In this document: positions 28,911-40,153 of the stretch, piece by piece
Position numbering within the stretch: position 1 is the first letter of the stretch
Layout: every line of letters begins with the position of its first letter
NCBI RefSeq assembly: GCF_003144095.1
Contig: NZ_NSKH01000003.1
Location: forward strand, 568,086 to 632,085
DNA from: Streptomyces sp. ICBB 8177
Lineage (GTDB): Bacteria; Actinomycetota; Actinomycetes; Streptomycetales; Streptomycetaceae
Direction of reading: 5' to 3'
DNA: 64,000 nt
The notes under the pieces: generated by a model
What the model was told of the DNA's origin: nothing
The model's database searches: none
Seen by the model: only the letters and a program-made list of their open reading frames with translations
Translations under genes and position numbers: made by a program

Positions 28911-29561
28911 TCAGGTCCCGCCGGCCCTGCCCGGGCGCGCCGTCTCCCAGCCCCGTTCCAGCAGCGCGAACACCCGCCGCACCGCCTCCTGCGGGTCGGG
29001 CTGCCGCCGGGCGAGGAAGGACGACTCCAGGGTGAAGCGGGCGAGCGCCGCGCAGACCACGTCGTCCGGCGGCGCGCCCTCCTCCTCGGCGATGGCCCGG
29101 GCGAGCGCGGCCTCGTGGCGCAGCCACATGCGGTGGCGGTAGTCGATCAGCGCGGGCGTGCTCTCCACCATGCGCGAGAACGCGGCGAACTCCTCGTCGT
29201 CCTCCGCCGACGGCCACTCGGGCCCGTTCAGGAGGCGGTCGCGCAGCGCCTCGGGGACGGACTGCCCGGCGGGGCGGTCGCGCACGGCCGCGACGAGAGA
29301 GGCCTCGATGTCGTCGTCGAGGTCGAAGACGAGCGCTTCCTTGCAGGGGAAGTGCTTGAACAGCGTCGTCACCGACACGTCGGCGGCGTCGGCGACCTCC
29401 TTGACGCCGACCTGGTCGTAACCGCGTTCGAGGAAGAGCCGCAGGGCCGCGTCGGCCAGCGCCTGGCGGGTCCGGGCCTTCTTGCGCTCCCGGCGGCCGA
29501 CCGGAGGGACGCCCGCCCGGGGGCCGGCGGCCGGGGGGTCCTGGTTCACGTCGACGTTCAC
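28911..29561 (-). CDS. TetR-family repressor, divergent from the TetX-like gene
   Basis: A 216-residue one-component regulator. The N-terminal helix-turn-helix (about residues 25-75: RQALADAALRLFLERG, GVKEVADAADVSVTTLFKHFP) is typical TetR, and the remainder is a helical ligand domain. GTG at 29561. It shares a 130-base divergent promoter region with the flavin monooxygenase at 29694, the usual layout when such a repressor controls the neighbouring resistance or catabolic enzyme. The inducer is unknown. I do not find the GAAC-NNN-GTTC operators of the 34-37 kb monooxygenases in this gap. Confidence 0.9.
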   Translation of the reverse strand: MNVDVNQDPPAAGPRAGVPPVGRRERKKARTRQALADAALRLFLERGYDQVGVKEVADAADVSVTTLFKHFPCKEALVFDLDDDIEASLVAAVRDRPAGQSVPEALRDRLLNGPEWPSAEDDEEFAAFSRMVESTPALIDYRHRMWLRHEAALARAIAEEEGAPPDDVVCAALARFTLESSFLARRQPDPQEAVRRVFALLERGWETARPGRAGGT

Positions 29562-29693
29562 CGGATCAGGGTACCTCCCTCTAGGTTGTCTCGCTGCGAA
29601 AGTTTATCCGTTGCACTTTTTTAGTCGCTGTGCTTTCGTGGAGGAGCCCGGCCGGTCCCCTCGACTCCCGGCCTCCAGAGAAAGGGCAGCCTC

Positions 29694-30806
29694 ATGACGA
29701 ATCCCGCCCGCTCCCCCCGTATCGCCGTCTCCGGTGCCGGCCCCGGCGGCCTGACCTGCGCCCGCGTGCTCCAGCTGCACGGGTTCGACGTCACCGTGCT
29801 CGAACTCGACGCCTCCCCCGACGCCCGGCCGCAGGGCGGCACGCTCGACCTGCACGAAGGGGACGGCCAAGTGGCCCTGAAGGCGGCCGGGTTGCTCGAC
29901 CGGTTCCTCGAACTGGCGCGGCCCGAGGGCCAGGAATGGCGGACGCTCGACGCGTACAGCGCGCGGCGGCTGGACGTCCGGGTGCCTGCCGAGGGCGCGA
30001 CCGAGCGGCCCGAGATCGACCGGGGCACGCTGCGCGCGATGCTGCTGGAGTCGCTGGCGCCGGGCACGGTGTGCTGGGGCAAGGGCGTGGCGTCGGCGCA
30101 GCCGCTGGACGGCGCGGGCTGCCGGGTCGCGTTCCGGGACGGCTCTAGCGAGGAGTTCGACCTGGTCGTCGGCGCGGACGGCGCCTGGTCGCGGGTGCGC
30201 GCGGCGGTCTCGGAAGCGGTGCCCGCGTACACCGGGGTGACCTTCGTCAGCACCGGCTTCGAGGACGCGGACGTCCGCCACCGGGCGCTGGCGGAGCTGG
30301 TCGGCCCGGGCACGATGATGGCGCGGGCGGACGGCAAGGGCCTGTGCGTGCAGCGCAACAGCGGCGGCTACCTTGACTGCGCGGCGATGCTGCGCGTGCC
30401 CGAGCAGTGGCGGCGCGACGGGTTCGAGGACCAGGAGGGGGTGCGCGCGGAGCTGCTGGAGCTGTACGGCGACTGGCACGAGGACCTGCGCCACGTGTTG
30501 CGCGCCGGCGAACGCCCGCTGCTGCGGCGGCCGTTGTACGCCCTGCCGGTGCCGCACGAGTGGCGGCACGTCCCCGGCGTGACGCTGCTGGGCGACGCGG
30601 CGCACCTGATGCCGCCGCTGGGCGTCGGCGCGAACCTCGCCATGCTGGACGGGGCGGAACTGGCGCTGGCCGTCGCCACCGCCGCCACGGTCGACGAAGG
30701 CGTCCGCGCCTACGAGTCCGTCATGCTCCCGCGCTCCGCGAAGTACGCGAGGGACTGCGAGGAGGGCCTGAAGACCTTCCTGCCGGAGGCCGAAGCGATC
30801 GCCTGA
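29694..30806 (+). CDS. TetX-like FAD-dependent monooxygenase
   Basis: A 370-residue group A flavoprotein monooxygenase. The FAD-binding GAGPGGL is at residues 15-21, the DG motif region VVGADGAWSRVR near 160, and GDAAHLMPPLGVGANLAMLDG near 300. The segment RPQGGTLDLHEGDGQVALKAAGL near residue 50 closely follows the pattern of TetX, the tetracycline-inactivating hydroxylase ([21 protein letters not shown] as I recall it). Together with the divergent TetR gene this suggests a drug- or aromatic-compound-modifying enzyme. Many TetX relatives do not act on tetracycline, so the substrate is open. ATG at 29694 after GAAAGGG. Confidence 0.82.
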   Translation: MTNPARSPRIAVSGAGPGGLTCARVLQLHGFDVTVLELDASPDARPQGGTLDLHEGDGQVALKAAGLLDRFLELARPEGQEWRTLDAYSARRLDVRVPAEGATERPEIDRGTLRAMLLESLAPGTVCWGKGVASAQPLDGAGCRVAFRDGSSEEFDLVVGADGAWSRVRAAVSEAVPAYTGVTFVSTGFEDADVRHRALAELVGPGTMMARADGKGLCVQRNSGGYLDCAAMLRVPEQWRRDGFEDQEGVRAELLELYGDWHEDLRHVLRAGERPLLRRPLYALPVPHEWRHVPGVTLLGDAAHLMPPLGVGANLAMLDGAELALAVATAATVDEGVRAYESVMLPRSAKYARDCEEGLKTFLPEAEAIA

Positions 30807-33658: not shown

Positions 33659-33914
33659 GCGGCGATCCTAGGCACGCCCCGCACCCGGGACCCGCGGCTT
33701 ACCGGGCAGCGACCGCGCCGCCGCCCCGCGATGCCCGTCTGGGCCCTGCCCCGGGGTTCGTCGTCAAGCGTGTGGGCGGATTCGGCCGGAGGCCCGCTCT
33801 CAGCCGTGGGGCCTGGTGGATCATGGGGACGGCAGCATCCGACCGAGGGCGTGGAACGGCGACCGGCCGCGAGTCGGGCACCTTCCGCCCTCCGCCAGTG
33901 GAACGAGGAACCGC

Positions 33915-34355
33915 ATGCCTCTCAGCGGCGAGTACGAACCGAGTCCGGCGCAGTTCGTGCGCGACCAGGTCGCGTTGTACGAACGTTCCGGCGGCACCGA
34001 GGGAACGACCTTGCGGGGCAAGCCCGTTGTGGTTCTCACCAGCCTGGGCGCCAAGAGCGGCAAGCTGCGCAAGACGCCGCTGATGCGCGTCGAGCACGAC
34101 GGCTCGTACGCCCTCGTGGCCTCGCAGGGCGGCGCGCCCAGGCATCCGACCTGGTACTTCAACCTGGTCGCGCACCCGGTCGCCGAGTTGCAGGACGGGC
34201 CCGTGCGGCAGGACATGCGCGCCCGCGTGGTCGAGGGCGCGGAGCGGGACGCGTGGTGGGCGCGGGCGGTCGAGGCGTGGCCCGACTACGCGGAGTACGC
34301 GAAGAAGACGGACCGCGTGATCCCCGTCTTCGTCCTGGAGCCGGTGGCGGGCTGA
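33915..34355 (+). CDS. DDN-type (F420-dependent nitroreductase family) protein
   Basis: A 146-residue member of the deazaflavin-dependent nitroreductase/quinone reductase family (DUF385). Typical segments are [39 protein letters not shown] (shown in pieces: [22 protein letters not shown]) and [16 protein letters not shown]. Relatives in mycobacteria use reduced F420 to reduce quinones or nitro-compounds, and streptomycetes make F420. ATG at 33915 with GAGGAA upstream. It ends three bases from the convergent monooxygenase at 34358. Confidence 0.85.
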
Positions 34356-34357
34356 CG

Positions 34358-35899
34358 TCAGCTCGCGGGTTCGCCCGCCCAGCGGCGCAGCGCGGTCTTC
34401 AGGCCCGCGCCGTCGGTGGCGTCCGTGGCCCAGGCGATCACGCCGTCCGGGCGGACCAGCACGCCGGCCGGCGTCGCGCGGCCGTCGGCCACGATGGTCA
34501 CCTGGCCGGTCCAGGGCGCGGCGACGCGGGCGAACGCGCCGTCCGGCGTGCGGTCGAGCAGCAGGAACCCACCGTCGTGGCCGTGGTCGACCAGCCGTGA
34601 GCCGTCGTGCAGCCGCAGATCGGGCACGTAGCGGCCGGTCAACGGGTGGTCGCCGGGCAGGGCGACCCGCTGACCGACGCCGGAGATCAGCTTGACGGCG
34701 TAGGTCGCGCCTTCTCCGGTGGCCAGCAGGTCGGCGACGACCTTGCGGAGCGCCGTGGACTTCGCGTCGCCGCGCAGCACGCCGATCTGGGCGCGGGTCC
34801 AGTCCAGCACCCAGGCGCCGAGGGGGCGGCGCTCGGCGTCGTAGGTGTCGAGCAGTTCCTCGGTCGCGCGCCCGGTGGCGACCGCGCCGAGCTTCCAGCC
34901 GAGGTTCATCGCGTCGCCGACCCCGAGGTTGAGCCCCTGGCCGCCGAACGGCGGGTGCACGTGGGCGGCGTCACCGGCCAGCAGCACCCGGCCCAGGCGG
35001 TAGTCGGCGGCCTGCCGGGCGTTGTCGCTCCAGCGGGTCGCGGCGCCGCGCAGCGCGGTCAGCGTGACGTCGGTGCCGGAGACGCGCCGCAGGCTCTCCT
35101 GCACGTCCTCCAACGTGACCGGCGCCGAGCGGTCGGCCGGGAGGCGCCCGAACTCGACGGTGACCACGCGCCCCGGCTGCGGCCCGTAGCGGTAGGCGCC
35201 GCGCGGCGACCACGTCCAGCCGTCGGCGAGCTTGCCCGGGTCCTCGATGTCGGCGAGCGCCATGTGGCCGGTCAGCTCGGGGTCGGTGCCGGGGAAGCCG
35301 ATGCCCGCGAGGCGGCGCACGGTGCTGTGCCCGCCGTCGCAGCCGGCCAGCCAGCGGGTGCGCACCGTGCCGTCGGTGGTGCCGACGAGCACGCCGTCGA
35401 CGGTGTCCTCCAGCGCCGTCACCTCGACCCCGCGGATCACCGGGACGCCGAGCCGGGCGACGTGCGCGGCCAGCAGTTCCTCCAGCTCGCGCTGCGGCAC
35501 CATGCGCGCGCCGTCGACGGCGGCGTGCGCGGCGAGGTCGGGGTCGGACCAGTCCACGAGGCCGGGGTCGAGGACCATCCCGGCGAAGTGCCCGGTGAAG
35601 CGCGGCACGCCGCCGGGCTCGCGGTCGCCGGACTCACGGCCGCCGGCCCCGCGGTGGAACGATCCCACCCGCTCCAGCGTCTCCCGCTGCACCCGCTCGG
35701 CGGCGGGCAGCAGGCCGCGGCGGTCGAGCGCTGCGGCGGTCGTCACGTTGATCGCGCCCGCCTTCATCCCCTCGTCCGGGTCGGTCCGCCGCTCGATCAC
35801 CTGCACCGACGCCCCGGCGAGCGCCAGCTCGGCGGCGAGCACGAGCCCCACCGGTCCGGCCCCGACCACGGTCACGTCCGCGTCCTGCTTCACTCGCAT
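34358..35899 (-). CDS. FAD-dependent aromatic monooxygenase
   Basis: A group A flavoprotein hydroxylase of about 513 residues with the same three motifs as its relatives: VTVVGAGPVGLVLAAELALAG near residue 10, LAGCDGGHSTVRRLAGI near 190, and GDAAHVHPPFGGQGLNLGVGDAMNLGWKL near 305. A C-terminal thioredoxin-like domain follows. The first methionines are crowded (35908 GTG, 35905 and 35899 ATG); none has a ribosome site, because the operators and promoter occupy the space. Transcription may start just before or at the start codon, giving a nearly leaderless message. Substrate unknown. Confidence 0.83.
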   Translation of the reverse strand: MRVKQDADVTVVGAGPVGLVLAAELALAGASVQVIERRTDPDEGMKAGAINVTTAAALDRRGLLPAAERVQRETLERVGSFHRGAGGRESGDREPGGVPRFTGHFAGMVLDPGLVDWSDPDLAAHAAVDGARMVPQRELEELLAAHVARLGVPVIRGVEVTALEDTVDGVLVGTTDGTVRTRWLAGCDGGHSTVRRLAGIGFPGTDPELTGHMALADIEDPGKLADGWTWSPRGAYRYGPQPGRVVTVEFGRLPADRSAPVTLEDVQESLRRVSGTDVTLTALRGAATRWSDNARQAADYRLGRVLLAGDAAHVHPPFGGQGLNLGVGDAMNLGWKLGAVATGRATEELLDTYDAERRPLGAWVLDWTRAQIGVLRGDAKSTALRKVVADLLATGEGATYAVKLISGVGQRVALPGDHPLTGRYVPDLRLHDGSRLVDHGHDGGFLLLDRTPDGAFARVAAPWTGQVTIVADGRATPAGVLVRPDGVIAWATDATDGAGLKTALRRWAGEPAS

Positions 35900-35908
35900 C
35901 GTCATCAC

Positions 35909-35944
35909 GAACACTGTTCTATAAACGAACGCTGTTCGTGTCAA
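35909..35944 (-). promoter_or_regulatory. Promoter with two GAAC-NNN-GTTC operators (monooxygenase at 34358)
   Basis: On the minus strand TTGACA (35944-35939) is followed after 17 bases by TAGAAC (35921-35916), or after 15 by TATAGA. The palindrome GAACGCTGTTC (35927-35937) fills the spacer and GAACACTGTTC (35909-35919) covers the -10 box and probable start. Centres are 18 bases apart. This is the classic layout of a repressor-blocked promoter. Confidence 0.75.
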
Positions 35945-36030
35945 GCGGCACGGAACCCGCCGCCCCCGAGAGCCGAAAGCCCCGCGTCCCCTTGGGGCGG
36001 CGCGCGGGCACGGCGCCGTGCGTTCCGCCC

Positions 36031-37155
36031 TCAGGACAGCTTCGCCTCAGGAGCGAACGCGGGCAGCTTCGCGAGACTGCCGCGCACGGCCTCGGCGCCG
36101 TACGCGAACATCTGCCGCTCGTACTCGCCGACCGCGCCGAGCAGATCCGTGCGGCCTTCTTCAGCCTCGATCAGGCGGCGGCGCAGCAGGTCGGCGTCGC
36201 GCAGCGCGGTGTTCGCGCCGTTGCCGCCGGTCGGCGAGGTGGCGTGGATCGCGTCGCCGAGCAACGTGACCGGTCCGGGCGCCCAGCGCTCACCGGGCTC
36301 GACCACCCGGATGGACAGCAGCGTGCTGTTGTCCGGGTCGGCCTGCTCGATCAGCGCGCGCAGCTGAGGGTGCCAGCCCTCCATCCTGGACAGCACGGCC
36401 TCCTGAGCGGACGCCTCCCCCAGCGTGCCGTTCGGCGGCAGGATCATGGCCCAGCGCACGTAGTCGCCGATGTCGGGCAGCGTGACGTCGGGGGCCAGTC
36501 GCTCGGCGGCCTGCTTCGGCGGAGTACGGAAACGCATCGCGCCGAGCAGCAGGCTGACGCCGTCGCCCGTGATCTTCGAGCCGTAGGCCTTGGACAGACC
36601 GGAGAACTCGTCGGTCAGCGGGGTGCGGCCGATGACGAACCGGACGCCGGTGTCGGTCGGGACGGTCCGCGGCGTCAACACCCCGCGGACCGCGGAGTTC
36701 ACGCCGTCCGCGCCGACGAGCAGGTCGGCGGTGGCCGGATCGCGGCGCGCGAACCGGGCTCGGACCGTACCGTCGGCCAGCACGTCGTAGCCGGTCAGCG
36801 CGGCGTCCGTGTGCACGGTGAGCCCGGTCAGCAGCAGGTGCCGCAGCACCTGCCGGTCGACCACGATGCCGGTCCGGCCGGCACCGAGCCTGCCGATCTC
36901 GTTCAGCCGCGGGTCCAGGATCAGCTGCTCGGCGGAGGCGTCCATGACGATCTCGTCCAGCAACGGGTGCCAGCGCGCCGGCAGGCAGTCGCGCACCGCC
37001 TGGAATCCGGCCGGGTCCAGCACGAGCCGGTAGCCCTGGAACCGCGCCACGATCCCCGGATCGCGCTCGAACACCTCGGCCTCGATCCCGGCCCCCCGCA
37101 GACCCTGCGCGAGAGCCAGGCCTCCCAGACCGGCTCCGATTACGGAAACTCGCAT
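36031..37155 (-). CDS. FAD-dependent monooxygenase (salicylate-hydroxylase-like)
   Basis: A 374-residue single-domain flavin monooxygenase. The FAD motif SVIGAGLGGLALAQGLRGAG is near residue 4, LVGADGVNSAVRGVLTP near 155, and TLLGDAIHATSPTGGNGANTALRDADLL near 295. Start ATG at 37155 has an excellent site (GGAGGTGTG); the frame further up is leader. Unlike the genes at 31190 and 34358 it lacks the C-terminal thioredoxin-like domain. Its promoter is nearly a copy of the one before the 34358 gene, so the two are probably controlled by the same repressor. Substrate unknown. Confidence 0.85.
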   Translation of the reverse strand: MRVSVIGAGLGGLALAQGLRGAGIEAEVFERDPGIVARFQGYRLVLDPAGFQAVRDCLPARWHPLLDEIVMDASAEQLILDPRLNEIGRLGAGRTGIVVDRQVLRHLLLTGLTVHTDAALTGYDVLADGTVRARFARRDPATADLLVGADGVNSAVRGVLTPRTVPTDTGVRFVIGRTPLTDEFSGLSKAYGSKITGDGVSLLLGAMRFRTPPKQAAERLAPDVTLPDIGDYVRWAMILPPNGTLGEASAQEAVLSRMEGWHPQLRALIEQADPDNSTLLSIRVVEPGERWAPGPVTLLGDAIHATSPTGGNGANTALRDADLLRRRLIEAEEGRTDLLGAVGEYERQMFAYGAEAVRGSLAKLPAFAPEAKLS

Positions 37156-37189
37156 CACACACCTCCAGGACATCGTCACCACGACTGAG

Positions 37190-37246
37190 GAACGCCGTTC
37201 TAGCTATACGATCACTGTTCTACTCAACGAACGACGTTCGAGTCAA
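37190..37246 (-). promoter_or_regulatory. Promoter with three GAAC-NNN-GTTC-type operators (monooxygenase at 36031)
   Basis: Minus-strand TTGACT (37246-37241) is followed after 18 bases by TAGAAC. GAACGACGTTC (37229-37239) lies in the spacer, GATCACTGTTC (37210-37220, one mismatch) over the -10, and GAACGCCGTTC (37190-37200) downstream. Centres are 19-20 bases apart. Matches the promoter at 35909-35944 almost base for base in its first 40 positions. Confidence 0.75.
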
Positions 37247-37446
37247 CTTCCAGCGGCCTGCCCTCCCGCCGATCCCCAGGTCGTGTGGGTGAGCTCATGG
37301 GTGGTCCTGACTCCGGCCCGGGCCCGCGTGCCGCGAATCCCGCCGGATACAATCCGGCGATTCTGCAGGGCTGAGGCCTCGGAGGGGCGCTCGGCTCCGC
37401 CCACTTCCGCGTGCTTACGCGCGACAATTCCGGGGGGCAATCGTCC

Positions 37447-39768: not shown

Positions 39769-40153
39769 GTGAACTCCAGTCGTCGCAGTAGGCTCGCCTC
39801 CCCCAACCCCACCCGCTCACCCGGTATTTCCTCCGGTCTCAGCCACCCCGGAAAGCCTGCTCCCGGCAGTTCACCCGATGGCACGACCGCCGACGAGGCG
39901 TTCCGCGGTGCTCCACTCCAACAGGGGCCGGTGGCGTCGCGCAGGGACCTGCCCGGCACATCCACTGCGTCGGCACGGCACCGGAGGGCATCGTGCGACG
40001 CCCCGTGCCCGCCACCGCTAGAACTCACCCCGTGAGCCAGAGGCGAGCCGCGACCCGCTCACACGTACGGGTCAGGTTTTCCGGAACCCGTACGAACGCA
40101 ACGTACGGGCGTGGTTACGGTGCGCTGGGAAACGCGTGGGGAGTTGATGGGAC
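39769..40153. promoter_or_regulatory. 385-base intergenic region with CGTACGGG elements
   Basis: No gene is supported here. Near the right end are an inverted pair, CGTACGGGT (40064-40072) and ACCCGTACG (40086-40094), and a third direct copy CGTACGGG (40102-40109). They lie 45-90 bases before the XRE regulator start and look like an operator for that gene or its partner. The left 270 bases show nothing I can name. Confidence 0.5.

Follow-up and report, generated by a model that had tools for sequence, protein, structure and literature searches.

The closest described regulatory systems are the TetR/TetA, ActR/ActA and TcmR/TcmA pairs, in which the repressor gene is divergent to its target and is autoregulated. 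Paralogous repressors are thought to be insulated from one another by minor divergence of the recognition helix and the operator, and the transfer of a gene from one repressor to another has usually only been inferred. The locus described here comprises two monooxygenase genes, A and B, located in the window, i.e., the whole 64,000-nucleotide stretch of Streptomyces sp. ICBB 8177 DNA that was analyzed. From sequence comparison, it is quite probable that a TetR-family protein, R, controls A, B and its own gene, and that the operators of B were rewritten from TnA to RnY cores around the loss of B's own repressor. The features of the two genes and their promoters are as follows.

34358 to 35908, minus strand: gene A, a FAD-dependent monooxygenase of the aromatic hydroxylase type; 513 aa from the ATG at 35899, with an upstream in-frame GTG at 35908.
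35909 to 35919, minus strand: predicted operator A2, GAACAGTGTTC, overlapping the -10 TAGAAC (35916 to 35921) and kept in nearly all close A orthologs.
35927 to 35937, minus strand: predicted operator A1, GAACAGCGTTC, conserved, lying between the -35 and the -10 at a step of 18 bp from A2.
35939 to 35944, minus strand: -35 TTGACA of the A promoter, with a 17-bp spacer to TAGAAC; TTGACAC is kept in most orthologs.
36031 to 37155, minus strand: gene B, a FAD-dependent monooxygenase of 374 aa (Pfam FAD_binding_3, 3.9e-18), with orthologs at 86-91% in relatives.
37190 to 37200, minus strand: predicted operator B3, GAACGGCGTTC, with an RnY core (TnA in most B orthologs).
37210 to 37220, minus strand: predicted operator B2, GAACAGTGATC, with an RnY core, overlapping the -10 TAGAAC (37217 to 37222).
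37229 to 37239, minus strand: predicted operator B1, GAACGTCGTTC, lying between the -35 and the -10; the ancestral form is GATCTAAGTTC.
37241 to 37246, minus strand: -35 TTGACT of the B promoter, with an 18-bp spacer, assigned from sequence.

The product of A matched FAD_binding_3 (1e-70) and Rng_hyd_C (1.4e-20), and in this FAD_binding_3 plus aromatic hydroxylase C-terminal architecture it resembles rifampin monooxygenase (Rox/Iri) and the angucycline hydroxylases PgaE and CabE. Its best PDB matches were polyketide oxygenases, with rifampin monooxygenase close behind; the score against the NCBIfam model for the latter (NF033145, rif_monoox) was 329.7 bits, below the cut-off of 800. The product of B belongs to the same broad family of single-component flavin monooxygenases as the tetracycline destructase Tet(X) and the AbsH3-type enzymes, and scored 52.7 bits against the Tet(X) model NF033111 (cut-off 750). 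PADLOC returned no match for A, B or R. The fold is evident from the sequence matches to Pfam and the PDB.

The sequence-only reading had described five GAAC-n3-GTTC palindromes at 18-20 bp steps on the promoters of A and B, and these were confirmed by the sequence and by shuffling. Exact matches to GAACNNNGTTC were found at 35909-35919, 35927-35937, 37190-37200 and 37229-37239, i.e., four in the window against 0.67 expected, a count reached in none of 100 shuffles. The fifth, GATCACTGTTC at 37210-37220, has one mismatch. The steps are 18 bp at A and 20 and 19 bp at B. On the minus strand, the promoters read TTGACA-17-TAGAAC for A and TTGACT-18-TAGAAC for B, each with one operator inside the -35/-10 spacer and the next one across the -10. 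The same reading had proposed a near-leaderless message. For A, the second palindrome is immediately followed by an in-frame GTG (35906-35908) and ATG (35897-35899), which makes a leaderless or near-leaderless transcript plausible from the sequence, whereas B has a leader with a Shine-Dalgarno-like GGAGG and the proposal does not extend to it.

Random scatter of the motif across the genome had been named as an outcome that would speak against a regulon. Single palindromes did occur at about the level of chance (52 in the 6.33-Mb genome against approximately 66 expected from the shuffle rate of the window), but tandem palindromes were found at only three loci in the 6.33 Mb, namely A, B and the promoter of a TetR gene; the reversed control pattern of the tandem motif gave no match in the whole genome. 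The earlier suggestion to look for paired motifs, and for a TetR gene carrying them in its own promoter, thus led to R.

G000:C24:361526-362236, on another contig than A and B: R, a TetR-family gene of 237 aa with TetR_N and TetR_C_1 domains.

Both Pfam domains of R scored above their cut-offs, TetR_N (PF00440) at 4.7e-09 and 36.3 bits (cut-off 24) and TetR_C_1 (PF02909) at 4e-12 and 46.6 bits (cut-off 21). A profile of the A-linked TetRs gave R 397.8 bits and the next-ranked protein of the genome 112.6, making R the sole member of the family there. As the first reading had stated, no such regulator adjoins A or B, the only member being on the other contig; given an assembly of 27 contigs that is 99.99% complete, an overlooked second member is possible but unlikely. 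The R promoter contains GAACAGCGTTC, GAACAACGTTT and GAATGCCGTTC at 20-bp steps, ending just before the start codon, with a half-site mismatch in two of the three. Since the tandem motif is limited to A, B and the R promoter, R is likely to be the repressor and to be autoregulated through the three palindromes before its own gene, which gives computational support to the claim that one TetR-type repressor controls both A and B. A single palindrome near a TetR gene at C17:903565 (L127) was also considered, but that TetR belongs to another group. The A paralog at C22:344093, preceded by a single GAACTCCGTTC, was considered as a fourth target, but the match was put down to chance because the sister species has GAACTCCACTC instead. 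Elsewhere in the same genome, tandem palindromes with a two-base spacer (CGAACATGTTCGTTGCGAACAAGTTCG) adjoin another TetR_C_1-like gene (L132, near 1360-1400).

No efflux pump gene was found beside R in this genome, so R is an orphan regulator gene. In a sister clade and in some R orthologs, the TetR gene is divergent to a DHA2-type MFS efflux gene and shares up to four operators with it. The sister clade, from Streptomycetaceae (L191-L199), has up to four RnY operators in common with the divergent pump, an arrangement that would form a compact autoregulated efflux switch; no such switch was found in the papers searched.

The association of A with this repressor family was supported by its orthologs. 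Nearly all of the 26 close orthologs (65-80% identity) with upstream sequence, from Streptomyces, Kitasatospora, Amycolatopsis, Pseudonocardia, Nocardia, Mycobacterium and other genera, carry TTGACACGAACnnnGTTCGTnnnTAGAACnnnGTTCGTG tandem sites, which were absent from relatives of A at 45-56% identity. A divergent TetR of R's family shares the promoter with A in 24 of the 26, the exceptions being Amycolatopsis sacchari (L055), with no TetR nearby, and Streptantibioticus rubrisoli (L071), where the TetR is approximately 4 kb away. This adjacent gene, TetR-A, is kept in G017, G084, G102 and G113. All seven relatives without an intact A-adjacent TetR (G001, G006, G014, G026, G034, G052 and G098) have an R ortholog elsewhere, adjacency being less certain in some of them because of contig ends or 1.5-kb flanks, above all in G052, where the A match lacks the first 72 residues and the promoter is outside the view. 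TetR-A is reduced to a 5' remnant in G014 and is a pseudogene broken after approximately residue 109 in G026, where R is intact. In relatives with an unlinked R, the tandem motif was mainly on A and R. G026 is a separate case of a local repressor lost and an unlinked one retained, and both its TetR-A (L244:16012-16350) and the MFS pump gene beside its R (L244:3596-4861) look degraded.

Two classes of operator core were distinguished, GAAC-RnY-GTTC for A and R and GAAC-TnA-GTTC for most B orthologs. The helix signature MRR..V, which is that of R, was present in 46 family TetRs, whose neighboring sites were RnY in 114 cases and TnA in none, while 12 proteins with I/V-R-R/S..I had 28 TnA sites and one RnY site; three MRS..V proteins had mixed classes. 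The TnA proteins form one clade (support 100/98). By these counts the core class tracks the helix-turn-helix signature of the repressor, the classes resting on few independent events, i.e., one TnA clade and one rewired promoter. In TetR-operator structures, an arginine at the signature position contacts bases near the operator center, and this fits discrimination at core positions +/-1. In G125 and G133, which have TnA B promoters, the family search found no TetR-B beside B; as a control, both genomes proved to have an unlinked family TetR of the TnA type, whose own gene is preceded by a TnA site.

An ortholog of B at 86-91% identity is usually accompanied by a divergent TetR-B of its own and by three operators whose cores are TnA, the ancestral-type sequences being GATCTAAGTTC, GAACTTAGATC and GAACTAAGTTC. 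TnA cores were present in 25 of 27 sites from nine genomes with the B promoter type (among them G125, without an adjacent TetR-B). A later search added eight orthologs; every one was of the TnA class, and in seven of them TetR-B adjoins B. The cores at B in the window are GTC, AGT and GGC, all three of the RnY class of A and R, making this the sole all-RnY case among orthologs with the B promoter layout. Relative to the majority ortholog form, 23 of 24 half-site bases are kept and the one change is towards the consensus, while all six core-flanking bases are changed, each time to R...Y. An operator switch at B was deduced because the half-sites are kept and the discriminating core bases are changed. 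The sister species G001, of the same genus, still has TetR-B, yet its third B site already resembles the RnY class (GAACAATGTTC). The change may therefore have begun before TetR-B was lost; it may have come about gradually, or a degree of cross-binding may be ancestral. In B orthologs at lower identity (73-77%; L239, L240 and L241), the tandem palindrome is of another kind (TTGAACACTGTTCAA-like), and two of the three have a weakly similar divergent TetR; from these differences, B appears to be paired with several different TetRs across its orthologs.

Two further features record the rearrangement of the locus.

37247 to 37277, plus strand: fossil of TetR-B, consisting of the side that held its promoter and start together with the first five codons; both the -10 and the start codon are destroyed.
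33811 to 35968, no strand assigned: segment inverted relative to the sister species G001, containing an F420-type reductase gene, A and the A promoter, by orientation of the blastn blocks.

The 31 bases of the fossil align without gaps to eight orthologous promoters with 18-22 identities, and none of 100,000 random 31-mers from the window matched as well. In G001, TetR-B is divergent to B; the blastn alignment of the window to G001 runs through B and its promoter, ends at 37277, approximately 16 bases into TetR-B, and homology resumes near 39900, past an FG-GAP gene. The inversion spans 2.15 kb (window 33811-35968 against L232:8667-10813 of the sister species).

This inversion occurred next to both promoters, and the promoters of A and B are near-identical in places (TAGAACAGTG-TCGT), as would be expected if the B promoter had been copied from that of A by gene conversion or recombination rather than altered base by base. 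However, B keeps its ancestral layout, with three sites, the 18-bp spacer, GTTGAGTAGAAC and the GATC half-site of site 2 placed as in relatives (GAACAGTGATC retains this half-site from the ancestral GAACTTAGATC), which argues that the B promoter was altered in place and not replaced by that of A. A narrower form would confine the conversion to a short tract across the center of B2; taken as a whole, including this form, copying is considered unlikely. Somewhat less probable still is that the B promoter simply drifted after the loss of TetR-B, its likeness to the A operators being coincidental and B being constitutive. A promoter freed of its repressor is expected to drift, and decay is indeed seen in the start codon and -10 that once belonged to TetR-B, but drift would not spare the half-sites yet target the cores.

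The possibility that another regulator binds the A and B sites is very slight. No TetR gene lies closer to A and B than the one at 28911-29561, which the first reading had put forward as a candidate, but its product gave no TetR_C_1 match and scored a marginal 23.5 bits against the R family, and it is a different TetR, divergent to a Tet(X)-like gene across a promoter that lacks GAACnnnGTTC. That LexA binds the palindromes as SOS boxes is scarcely credible, for although their half-sites are nearly identical to those of the Gram-positive box, CGAAC-n4-GTTCG, the spacer is three rather than four bases in all conserved sites, the sites are in tandem arrays and travel with TetR genes, and CGAACN4GTTCG occurs ten times elsewhere in the genome and never at A, B or R. 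As a separate observation, the Tet(X)-like monooxygenase of the 28911-29694 region scored 155 bits against the Tet(X) model (below the cut-off), and the spacer between it and its TetR resembles the TTTTAGTnnCTA-type promoters before 50-55% relatives of gene A, which suggests a second conserved TetR-monooxygenase operator family.

Returning to control by R with rewriting of the B operators, we hypothesize the following for binding, repression, induction and the order of events. Dimers of R would sit on the tandem GAAC-RnY-GTTC operators, two or three per promoter, across the -35/-10 of A, B and R and thereby block RNA polymerase. Release would come when the TetR_C_1 domain is occupied by a small molecule, probably an aromatic xenobiotic or antibiotic. 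Upon induction, A and B would be made together and oxidize the inducer, with R regulating itself. Detoxification of an aromatic compound would be in keeping with the enzyme and pump families. Ancestrally, A and B would have been separate modules, each with a divergent local TetR, both of which were presumably lost in this lineage. The RnY operators of A would have suited R already and required no change, while those of B would have gone from TnA to RnY at three sites, placing B under R, and B's own repressor would have been deleted apart from its first codons.

With somewhat less confidence, though still as the favored interpretation, the locus is proposed to represent a natural operator-specificity switch in one lineage, in which a relative of pump-guarding repressors ceased to have the pump as its neighbor and took over two monooxygenase genes that formerly had paralogous repressors. 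B would then be a rare visible instance of a control site rewritten for a new controller, with the starting condition (sister species), the outcome (window), the repressor fossil and the covarying helix residues visible together. The specificity-setting operator bases and residues (the MRR versus IRR/MRS positions at the start of the helix-turn-helix) are directly testable, and RnY versus TnA would provide a simple rule for predicting which efflux or oxygenase gene an orphan TetR controls in Streptomycetaceae and relatives. The regulon had been thought undescribed, and a literature search of open-licence papers, operator sequences included, likewise returned no description of the regulon or the motif.

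Compared with the TetR/TetA, ActR/ActA and TcmR/TcmA systems, R likewise combines TetR_N and TetR_C_1, and the closest solved structure to its family is that of ActR (2opt, 1.2e-39). As in TetR/TetA-type pairs, relatives of R are divergent to DHA2-type MFS pumps, with operators common to both genes. Unlike such pairs, R itself adjoins no target, its predicted targets A and B being on another contig, and its operators, unlike those of all three systems, are two or three tandem 11-bp palindromes.
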